Shown here: one piece after another, positions 39,903 to 41,969 of the stretch
How the letters are laid out: each line of letters begins with the position of its first letter
How positions within the stretch are numbered: the stretch's first letter is position 1
DNA from: Microbacteriaceae bacterium
GTDB lineage: Bacteria > Actinomycetota > Actinomycetes > Actinomycetales > Microbacteriaceae
Direction: 5' to 3'
DNA: 43,137 nucleotides
NCBI GenBank assembly: GCA_025463565.1
Contig: JAODAT010000123.1
Location: 1 to 43,137, forward strand
Notes under the pieces: generated by a model
Told to the model about the DNA's origin: nothing
Database searches by the model: none
What the model saw: only the letters and a program-made list of their open reading frames with translations
Position numbers and translations under genes: made by a program

Positions 39903-40349
39903 CTAGCGCCCGAAGAACTCGCGCAACACCGCACCACACGTGTCGGCCTCGACGCCCGCGAAGACCTCCGCGCGGTGCGGCAGCCGGCGGTCGCGCAGGA
40001 TGTCGTAGACCGATCCCGCAGCGCCCGCCTTCTCGTCCCACGCCCCGAACACGACCGTCGGAATCCGGGCCGCGAGAATCGCCCCGGCACACATCGGGCA
40101 CGGCTCGAGGGTGACGACGAGCGTGCAGCCGGTCAGGTGCCAGTCGCCCGTGTGCTCCGCCGCGGCGCGCAGCGCGAGGATCTCGGCGTGAGCGGTCGGG
40201 TCCTGGCGCAATTCGCGCTCGTTGCGACCCAGCCCGATGAGCTCACCCGAAGCATCGAAAACCAGGGCCGCGACGGGAACGTCGCCGTGCGCGGCGGCGA
40301 GGCGGGCGCTCTCGAGTGCCTGCAGCATCCATTCGGAATACCGGGCCAT
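39903..40349 (-). CDS. tadA: tRNA-specific adenosine deaminase / nucleoside deaminase
   Basis: 148 residues of the cytidine-deaminase-like fold. The zinc and catalytic residues are H54-A-E56 and P-C84-P-M-C87. TadA converts A34 to inosine in tRNA-Arg(ACG); related guanine deaminases have a similar motif, but the length and LVVTLEPCPMCAGAI favour TadA. ATG 40349 follows GGGAGGTG. Divergent from upp across 32 bases. Confidence 0.92.
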   Translation of the reverse strand: MARYSEWMLQALESARLAAAHGDVPVAALVFDASGELIGLGRNERELRQDPTAHAEILALRAAAEHTGDWHLTGCTLVVTLEPCPMCAGAILAARIPTVVFGAWDEKAGAAGSVYDILRDRRLPHRAEVFAGVEADTCGAVLREFFGR

Positions 40350-40381
40350 CGCTCACCTCCCGCGTTCGATAGATTGACCCT

Positions 40382-41014
40382 ATGCGAGTCCACGTTGCCG
40401 ACCACCCGCTCGTCACCCACAAGCTCACGGTGCTACGCGACAAGAACACGCCGTCGCCCACCTTCCGCGCTCTCGCCGAAGAACTGGTGACGCTGCTCGC
40501 CTATGAGGCGACCCGGGATGTGCGCACCGAACCGGTCGACATCGTCACCCCGGTCGGACCCACGACCGGCCTCGCCATCAGCGAACCGCGTCCACTGGTC
40601 GTGCCGATTCTTCGCGCAGGGCTCGGGATGCTCGAGGGCATGGTCAAACTGGTTCCGACCGCCGAGGTGGGCTTTCTCGGAATGGTGCGCAACGAGGAGA
40701 CGCTGCAGCCCGACATCTACGCGGAGCGCTTGCCCGCCGACCTCTCCAACCGCCAGTGCTTCGTGCTCGACCCGATGCTCGCCACCGGCGGATCGCTCAT
40801 CGCCGCCATCACCTACCTGTTCGATCGCGGCGCCGTTGACGTCACCGCGATCTGCCTGATCGCCGCTCCGGAGGGCCTGGCGGCCGTCGAAATGGCGACA
40901 GTGGGCCGCGAAGTGCACATCGTCGTCGGCGCCCTCGACGAGAAGCTGAACGAGGTCGGGTACATCGTCCCCGGCCTCGGCGACGCCGGTGACCGCTTGT
41001 ACGGGACCGTCTAA
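40382..41014 (+). CDS. upp: Uracil phosphoribosyltransferase
   Basis: 210 residues, full length. It converts uracil and PRPP to UMP in pyrimidine salvage. The PRPP-binding motif is [14 protein letters not shown], and the C-terminal uracil-binding segment is [15 protein letters not shown]. Start ATG 40382 gives [15 protein letters not shown]. The promoter of the next unit overlaps its last codons. Confidence 0.96.
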
Positions 41015-41026
41015 TCCACGTATAGT
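40997..41026 (+). promoter_or_regulatory. Promoter of the leaderless leader ORF
   Basis: TTGTAC (40997-41002) and TATAGT (41021-41026) are separated by 18 bases. Six bases later comes the A of the ATG at 41033, the distance expected between a -10 box and the start of transcription. The message would then begin with the start codon. Confidence 0.7.
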
Positions 41027-41032
41027 TCTCCC

Positions 41033-41110
41033 ATGACTATGACGACGCCGCACCTGACCACCCTCGAGGTGTCTGGTTCCGCTGTCATGTGTTGTCGAAT
41101 GTGTGCCTAG
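41033..41110 (+). CDS. Cys-rich leader peptide, probably translated without a leader
   Basis: 25 codons, ending SAVMCCRMCA with cysteines 20, 21 and 24, then TAG. No ribosome-binding site is possible if transcription starts at the ATG, so it would be a leaderless ORF. Cys codons next to the stop resemble known actinobacterial cysteine-attenuation leaders upstream of sulfur genes. It stands 148 bases ahead of the winged-helix regulator. The stop codon lies in a short dyad (GCCTAGTAGGC). A regulatory, not structural, role is likely. Confidence 0.7.
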   Translation: MTMTTPHLTTLEVSGSAVMCCRMCA

Positions 41111-41258
41111 TAGGCGAAGTTCTGCCGGGTCCAACTAACGGACTCCAGGGTCTGCTCTCCTCATAACGGGAGCCTCCCACTACCGCACGCCCTGTTTCAT
41201 CCCGAAGGATCACACCCTCATCATTAGAGGCCCTTCACCTTTCCCAAGGAATTCGACC
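41111..41258 (+). promoter_or_regulatory. Structured leader RNA between the leader ORF and the winged-helix gene
   Basis: A stem at 41127-41145 (GGGTCC with GGACTC, one wobble) is followed by two short, mutually exclusive stems: CTCC/GGAG (41157-41172) and GGGA/TCCC (41168-41178). This is the kind of choice used in attenuation, but the stems are short and no clear T-tract terminator is seen. An AAGGA ribosome site lies 8 bases before 41259. Confidence 0.45.
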
Positions 41259-41969
41259 ATGTCACTCGCAACCCTCGATCTCGTCCGTCCCACCACCCAG
41301 GCCCCGCTGCACGTCGCGCCCGCGCCGGCCGCCACACCGGCCGCCGCACCGAAGATCCGCGCCGTGCCCACCGGCACCGAGGCCCGCGGCTTCGTGCTCT
41401 ACGTCGGAGTCGATGAGGCCAAGGCCCTGGCCGCCGGCACCAACCTCGGCGCCGTCGTCGAGGCGCTCAAGAAGCTCGCCGCCCAGCTCGTTCCCGACTC
41501 GGAGACCTACGCGGCCGTGGCCCTTGCGCCCGAGGGCGCCGGCGGCCGGGACGTGGATGTCGTGCGTCTCGCCCTGCAAGACCCGTCGGCCCTGGCCAAG
41601 CACCGCCAGGTCATCGAGCCGGAGCCGGCACCCCGCGCCGGCATCATCGTGGACCTCTCCCGCAAGCGCGTCACCCTCGACGAAGCGACCGCACCCCTCA
41701 CCTACAAGGAGTTCGAGCTGCTGCAGTACCTGGTGCTGCGCGAGGGTCGCACCATCGACCGCGCCGAGCTCATCTCGTCGCTCTGGTCGGTGGGCGACGA
41801 CGACGCCCCGAACGAGCGCACCATCGATGTTCACGTGCGGCGCCTCCGCTCCAAGCTAGGGGCGTACGAGGAGATCGTGCGCACCGTGCGCGGCGTCGGC
41901 TACCGCTTCGACCGACACGCAGACGTGTCGATCCGCCACACGACCACGCCGAGCCCCGACGTTTTCTAG
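41259..41969 (+). CDS. Orphan winged-helix (OmpR/PhoB C-terminal type) regulator
   Basis: 236 residues. The C-terminal ~90 residues are an OmpR-family DNA-binding domain (LTYKEFELLQYLVLREGRTI, DVHVRRLRSKLG and the terminal VRGVGYRFDRH). The N-terminal ~130 residues are not a normal receiver: no phospho-Asp signature is seen. It holds an Ala/Pro-rich start and a small alpha/beta stretch (GFVLYVGVDEAKALAAGTNL). No sensor kinase lies nearby. Its message carries the Cys-rich leader ORF, so the regulator itself may be under amino-acid control. Shares the bases CTAG with the convergent gene's stop. Confidence 0.85.
   Translation: MSLATLDLVRPTTQAPLHVAPAPAATPAAAPKIRAVPTGTEARGFVLYVGVDEAKALAAGTNLGAVVEALKKLAAQLVPDSETYAAVALAPEGAGGRDVDVVRLALQDPSALAKHRQVIEPEPAPRAGIIVDLSRKRVTLDEATAPLTYKEFELLQYLVLREGRTIDRAELISSLWSVGDDDAPNERTIDVHVRRLRSKLGAYEEIVRTVRGVGYRFDRHADVSIRHTTTPSPDVF

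Follow-up and report, generated by a model that had tools for sequence, protein, structure and literature searches.

A conserved Cys-rich leader ORF of the leaderless type precedes an orphan winged-helix regulator in Microbacteriaceae: a candidate sulfur amino acid attenuator

A short ORF with a Cys-rich end lies at 41033–41110 of the window (the whole stretch of 43,137 nucleotides analyzed here), upstream of the gene for an orphan regulator, and our analysis confirmed that this arrangement is real. Comparison with related genomes points to a conserved ORF with a selected tail, a folded body in its full-length forms, a promoter geometry of the leaderless type and a single target gene. We propose that the leader is a ribosome-mediated attenuator that senses the supply of sulfur amino acids and controls the orphan regulator, a reading that we hold with even confidence, neither leaning towards it nor away from it.

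The leader ORF and its locus

The features of the locus are as follows.
39903..40349, minus strand: tadA-like tRNA adenosine deaminase gene (best NCBIfam match slightly under the cut-off)
40382..41014, plus strand: upp, uracil phosphoribosyltransferase (protein match)
40997..41026, plus strand: promoter-like pair TTGTAC/TATAGT, whose placement would put the transcription start on the leader ATG or beside it
41033..41110, plus strand: leaderless-type leader ORF of 25 codons, MTMTTPHLTTLEVSGSAVMCCRMCA and stop (translation and comparison)
41090..41104, plus strand: conserved core TGT TGT CGA ATG TGT (Cys-Cys-Arg-Met-Cys); a single Ala codon and then the stop come after it
41111..41258, plus strand: untranslated gap of 148 nt, C-rich and G-poor, a possible Rho loading region by base composition
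41246..41257, plus strand: Shine-Dalgarno sequence AAGGA (41246–41250), then ATTCGAC (41251–41257), a possible pairing partner of GTCGAAT in the core (41094–41100)
41259..41969, plus strand: orphan regulator of 236 aa, with a variable N-terminus, a conserved domain of unknown type and an OmpR-type winged helix

The window translation of the leader ends in VMCCRMCA before the stop, in agreement with an earlier note on this DNA, which had described a 25-codon ORF with three Cys codons among its last six, and the stretch between its stop codon and the regulator measures 148 nt, as that note had it. Among the 382 ORFs of 8–60 codons in the window, the leader ORF is the only one with at least three Cys in the last six codons. 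Codons of the amino acid that would be sensed therefore stand near the end of the ORF.

The hexamer TTGTAC (40997–41002) lies inside the 3′ end of upp, which stops at 41014, and TATAGT (41021–41026) is separated from the ATG at 41033 by the six bases TCTCCC, so that the promoter-like pair claimed six bases before the ATG was indeed found. This pair scores 8 of 12; a generic sigma-70 scan with a threshold of 9 of 12 called no promoter here. The same placement recurs in relatives: the best −35/−10 fit at the leader ATG reached at least 8 of 12 in 74 of 81 leaders, compared with 3.5% of shuffles, and the distance between the end of the −10 element and the ATG was 6 or 7 nt in all 81 best fits (search range 5–9). 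Judged by this geometry, the start of the leader appears to be of the leaderless type in 74/81. By eye, we also noted a palindrome near GTGCAA-N5-TTGCAC, a possible operator, that overlaps the −10 region in four loci (L070, L087, L111, L131). A direct repeat near CATTGTTAC, with copies ~20 bases apart, occurs in the promoter region of L161, L162, L164, L179 and L180; such repeats upstream of the leader, likewise seen by eye, may be an activator site.

Conservation and codon selection of the leader

The regulator is present in 289 of 299 sampled genomes of the family (limit E 1e-30). A first inspection of 30 loci (L001, L009–L037) showed the CCRMC end upstream of it in 28, and the remaining two end in LCRMCA and CCRMHA. 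A leader precedes the regulator in all 80 named relatives (68 with the strict pattern, 12 with a variant), which are best matches and hence biased to close kin; their titles include Lacisediminihabitans, Cryobacterium, Herbiconiux and Leifsonia. Among 30 hand-picked family genomes, mostly chosen because earlier listed matches showed no strict pattern, 26 have the leader (24/28 in one set, plus L158 and L159). The other four lack a proper leader: that of L190 is degenerate and has lost its Cys codons, and none was found in L200, L202 and L206. Since the same kind of end occurs in 80/80 named relatives and 26/30 picked genomes, the leader before the regulator is no chance feature; these comparisons lack phylogenetic independence. 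Loss of the Cys codons, which the earlier note would have counted against it if found in close relatives, was seen in a minority (L160, L163 and L190), not in close relatives. The absence of Cys from these three leaders, together with the three genomes in which no leader was found, stands against an attenuator.

A covariance model built without the window detected the window leader at 39.2 bits. In a 40-genome sample, covariance-model search matched 21 of 25 family genomes, once each except for a weak second match in G191, and two other families gave one weak match apiece. The leader looks like an element with a single target. Copies before other genes were considered and rejected, on the basis of places with the CCRMC pattern and the window's own genome: among the CCRMC matches listed, 18 places were fetched, five of which precede the regulator (L044, L045, L046, L048, L049), and of the other 13 plus one from the own genome, 13/14 lie inside an ORF of at least 150 aa and none has a stop two codons past the ATG. 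In L047, the pattern occurs away from the regulator and is covered by no long ORF; in L050, also away from the regulator, it reads CSQCCRMCRSGQ and stop, so that its frame ends shortly past the motif, and a longer ORF overlaps it.

We then compared codons among 108 leaders anchored on CGAATG, an anchor that makes CGA and ATG constant by construction. Relative to it, Cys occupies position −2 in 101, −1 in 105 and +2 in 94 leaders, and the stop codon lies at a constant distance from the motif in 107, as TAA (47), TGA (42) or TAG (18). The searches that found the leaders of the 80 named relatives allowed other Arg codons or required only Cys, and CGA-ATG is nevertheless present in 80/80. The expectation of conserved Cys codons therefore held for the Cys-rich end and failed for Cys as its most constant part; that Arg-Met is better conserved than Cys also stands against an attenuator. 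In relatives, Cys codons are replaced by those for His, Ser, Gln, Arg, Pro, Met and others, and the number of Cys per leader ranges from 0 (L160, L163, L190) to 6 (L196, which ends in CACRMCCCC). Most of the 108 leaders have tandem Cys before CGA; some lack it, with ends such as MRRMCA (L159), LRRRMCR and RNRMCM. A role of the Cys cluster as a metal or redox ligand is not favored, as individual Cys residues are freely lost.

The choice of codons is also unusual. CGA is rare in 81 regulators (86 of 1994 Arg codons) yet is kept in the leaders; TGT is rare among the Cys codons of 13 window genes (7 of 37) yet is the Cys codon mostly used in the leaders. Between similar leaders, changes in the last six codons were 149 synonymous to 127 nonsynonymous, and those in the body 612 to 2447, in counts from leader pairs that are not independent; random single changes would be 24% synonymous, and the body falls below that. 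Because these ratios differ, we conclude from the comparison that selection acts on the last six codons, either as codons or as peptide, and that the rest is not selected as peptide. The body nonetheless keeps frame, every gap in an alignment of 38 leaders (A3) being a multiple of three. In L181, we noted by eye an 11-bp inverted repeat, CGTCCGCGGCC/GGCCGCGGACG, that begins in the last leader codons.

Methionine is enriched along with Cys. The median Cys+Met fraction was 0.219 in 136 leaders versus 0.053 in 270 short ORFs of the window, and 127 of the 136 exceeded the 95th percentile of the latter, in a set that omits the Cys-free leader ORFs (L160, L163, L190) and genomes without a leader. 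Because of this joint enrichment, a sulfur amino acid signal fits the leaders better than cysteine alone.

The constancy of Arg-Met raises the alternative of an arrest peptide, in which a chain ending in Arg-Met-Cys-(Ala/Arg)-stop would stall the ribosome through the exit tunnel and sense another ligand or a translation inhibitor. TnaC and the erm leaders are precedents for arrest peptides. Arg-Met is the most constant part of the leader, L209 keeps the charge with Lys (AAA) in place of Arg, and the fixed distance from motif to stop in 107/108 would suit such a peptide. We consider it unlikely, as a peptide leaves the synonymous constancy of CGA unexplained, leaders of other families do not keep this motif yet are rich in Cys or Met, and those of L162, L194 and L196 run past the motif.

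The constancy of CGA itself could mean that the leader is a sensor of CGA decoding, reporting TadA activity or Arg-tRNA and tied to the neighboring tadA. The tRNA that decodes CGA is tRNA-Arg(ICG), which owes its inosine to TadA. The retention of this rare codon in all named relatives agrees with such a sensor, and the regulator is accompanied in them by tadA in 76/80 and by upp in 77/80. Among the 40 tRNA genes of the window's draft genome, tRNA-Arg genes with ACG and CCG are present and TCG is absent, an absence whose weight is limited by the 88% completeness of the draft. In other families, however, tadA lies near the regulator in only 1 of 13 loci (1.5-kb flanks), and L209 has AAA, L215 has CGG and L181 is without CGA. 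This leaves the decoding sensor very improbable. As an observation on gene order, the group tadA-upp-leader-regulator stays together in the window (39903–41014 for the first two genes) and in relatives L059–L138.

Outside the family, a class-wide profile search (E 1e-40) found the regulator in 17 of 296 genomes, all in three families (f1, f6, f7), and a less strict search at the level of the order found it in 67 of 297, now also in f9 and f12, several of whose matches are partial. Of 13 loci from other families, 7 have upp in their 1.5-kb flanks. Every other-family locus that was read (a subset) has a short leaderless-type ORF before the regulator gene. In f6, leaders end in CCRRMQA, CGCRMQA, CCRMHA or CCCRML.., and the others come from one or two genomes each: f9 ends in ACGRACCRS, f7 has MFFQQRMPMLCVRDLTC and MHRSPCHRLARSAIAMMRCVRGLR, and f12 has 11 internal Met and one Cys. 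Two f6 genomes, L160 and L163, have a 30-codon leader ORF without Cys or internal Met that ends next to the regulator start. There the ORF is kept at its usual place despite the absence of both residues.

The Cys-free ORFs of L160 and L163, ending as they do beside the regulator, would suit a leader ORF that serves just to load ribosomes and to couple translation to the regulator, without any sensing role for its composition. The named relatives, however, have gaps of about 110 to 309 nt (with starts as chosen by the script) and keep the rare TGT and CGA codons against codon bias; both argue against coupling, which we regard as the least probable of the readings considered.

RNA structure and the downstream switch

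The fold of the window sequence taken alone (41033–41275) had a z-score of −1.25, with 19 of 200 shuffles folding at least as well, and is weak evidence. The comparison is more informative: a multibranch fold was predicted in 36 of 38 selected full-length leader bodies versus 271 of 1520 shuffles (mean z −2.13), and the excess was smaller against synonymous shuffles (mean z −0.98, 35 chosen leaders). All sets for structure were chosen by us, namely 38 full-length leaders in A3, 44 in A2 and 35 in the synonymous-shuffle test. In full-length leaders, the second hairpin shows two-sided changes at two pairs, with pairs broken in the other cells of the counts, which rest on two register classes assigned by eye; two of its positions are unpaired in 8/22 and 4/14 leaders. 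RNAalifold on A3 did not return this hairpin, in our guess because the alignment sets the two registers out of step. The second hairpin is missing from the window leader, which is a short form, and from other short forms. The earlier note had placed alternative stems in the 148-base leader after the ORF; the best-supported fold lies instead inside the ORF, upstream of the Cys codons, and an alternative pairing is predicted there between the Cys-Arg codons and the 5′ arm of the second hairpin.

Such a fold might itself be the sensor or a stability element, for instance riboswitch-like, with translation secondary. The prevalence of the multibranch fold over shuffles and a leader body that is not conserved as peptide are consistent with this. 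Against it, the second hairpin is absent from the short forms, the window leader among them, some of its pairs are broken in part of the leaders, and the frame, the stop and the synonymous changes of the tail form the pattern of a translated ORF. Moreover, the Shine-Dalgarno sequence of the regulator is far away and Rfam gave no match for the leader: with Rfam 15, the whole window matched only a tRNA, and 40950–41300 had no match down to E 1. A structural sensor is accordingly quite improbable in our judgement.

We return to the ribosome-mediated attenuator, of which translation, pausing, signal, direction and downstream switch are what we infer. Judging from the promoter, transcription would start at the leader ATG, and ribosomes would translate the leader as a leaderless message. 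At the slow, sulfur-rich end (rare TGT, rare CGA, ATG and TGT, close to the stop), pausing would depend on charged tRNA-Cys, and probably also on the charging of tRNA-Met. The position of the paused ribosome would decide whether the C-rich stretch remains open or brings about termination, which would most likely depend on Rho; alternatively, it would free the start region of the regulator. Low Cys or Met would in this way change the level of the orphan regulator.

No intrinsic terminator was found in the window. The gap after the leader has on average 0.40 C and 0.23 G, and its excess of C over G is above 0.2 in 65 of 81 gaps versus 24 of 81 regulator stretches; this richness in C may partly reflect strand composition, as regulator genes also have more C than G. 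Since the gap is C-rich and G-poor and the window shows no terminator, Rho-dependent control fits as the downstream switch. Between the Shine-Dalgarno sequence and the regulator start, ATTCGAC is found in the window and in 17 of 80 relatives (15 from one comparison plus L124 and L132), and its potential pairing with GTCGAAT of the core would fit translational attenuation. The idea that the CGAAUG core has a pairing partner downstream in every leader was rejected, as complementarity was at chance in 108 leaders (mean p 0.49; 13/108 at or below 0.05). Release of the Shine-Dalgarno sequence by a stalled ribosome, modeled by masking, likewise had no consistent effect across 108 leaders. Both results, like the lack of an intrinsic terminator in the window, count against the attenuator.

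The regulator, sulfur supply and known leaders

The only Pfam match of the regulator is Trans_reg_C (PF00486; residues 145–217, E 1.1e-21), and no receiver domain is among the matches, as the earlier note had read from the sequence (an OmpR-type DNA-binding domain without receiver). The winged helix was modeled with pLDDT above 90 over most of the domain. For the N-terminal domain, a first structure model was poor and a second better (mean pLDDT 87); the best Foldseek matches of its search were winged-helix domains or regulators containing one. GlnR carries a receiver-type N-terminal domain and differs in this from the present regulator, which has no receiver match; its winged helix is the nearest solved one (PDB 8hml, 8hig; 43–45% identity in Foldseek alignments). 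The window's own genome also encodes, at 1450–2082 of contig C78 (locus L002), a second short regulator 47% identical to the orphan regulator. A 12-codon ORF, MSGSKTSHCCRR, lies just upstream of it, and a gene beside it looks like that for a branched-chain amino acid binding protein.

What links the leader to sulfur is its composition. PF01507 (the PAPS-reductase family) was detected in 14/14 controls and in 7 of 26 family genomes (7/22 at ≥90% completeness and ≤5% contamination); it was not found in the window's own draft (88% complete). The 19 family genomes without a match include nearly complete, full-size ones. Leifsonia xyli lacks genes for assimilatory sulfate reduction, according to excerpts of a 2005 paper (PMC1266029). 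A sulfur amino acid signal would matter to organisms without sulfate reduction genes.

The nearest known kind of element is the leaderless Cys-rich ORF of mycobacteria, and by analogy the window element probably works likewise. The two share a leaderless short ORF, Cys codons near its end and a downstream gene on the same message. They differ in their targets, which in mycobacteria are cysA2, nirA and Rv0485, and in the CGA-ATG core, none being described in the excerpts of the mycobacterial work; the window element further differs in its receiverless OmpR-type target, the co-enrichment of Met and the multibranch fold in the ORF of full-length forms. Rv0485 is a ROK-type regulator. The earlier note placed known actinobacterial Cys leaders ahead of genes for sulfur assimilation or transport, which, taken as a limit, is too narrow, as the excerpted text of Shell et al. 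2015 (PMC4633059) has leaderless Cys-rich ORFs before cysA2, nirA and Rv0485, the last also as Msmeg_0932. A role in cysteine-dependent attenuation is cited for the mycobacterial leaders in an excerpt of PMC9031893; Canestrari 2020 is cited there and in PMC9094748 and PMC13236596.

Other known leaders share single features with this one. As excerpted from PMC1262725, candidate Cys leaders in Mycobacterium, Propionibacterium acnes and Bifidobacterium longum also have Cys codons near the stop and no terminator hairpin, and a Rho-dependent switch was proposed for them; they differ in preceding cys operons or cbs and are described as runs of Cys codons. The uORFC-8-2 motif before cysS of Rhodobacterales similarly combines tandem conserved Cys codons with RNA stems, but, by the excerpt of PMC8632094, it has an intrinsic terminator, its target is cysteinyl-tRNA synthetase and it belongs to another phylum. 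Among the literature matches listed, none described the present leader. The TnaC leader of the tna operon has conserved C-terminal residues just before its stop and possible Rho control of the gap that follows; its sequence is unrelated to that found here. The excerpt of PMC1262725 names tna.

More tentatively, and with clearly less confidence than in attenuation as such, the leader may represent a family-wide sulfur amino acid attenuator of a previously unlinked kind. On this doubtful extension, the first ~100 nt of a leaderless message would, in full-length forms, be a multibranch RNA and at the same time an ORF that ends in near-invariant CGA-ATG amid Cys and Met codons. Equally tentative is that its control acts on a receiverless regulator and not directly on sulfate assimilation, with the shares of Cys and Met exchanged between families.

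If attenuation by sulfur amino acids is true, a nutrient-sensing leader would feed a transcription factor rather than a pathway gene, and would do so in a family most of whose tested genomes (19 of 26) have no PAPS-reductase match. The leader offers a natural test of codon choice (rare TGT and CGA) and of an RNA fold within the ORF in attenuation, and it gives an entry point to an uncharacterized regulator carried by nearly all sampled genomes of the family.
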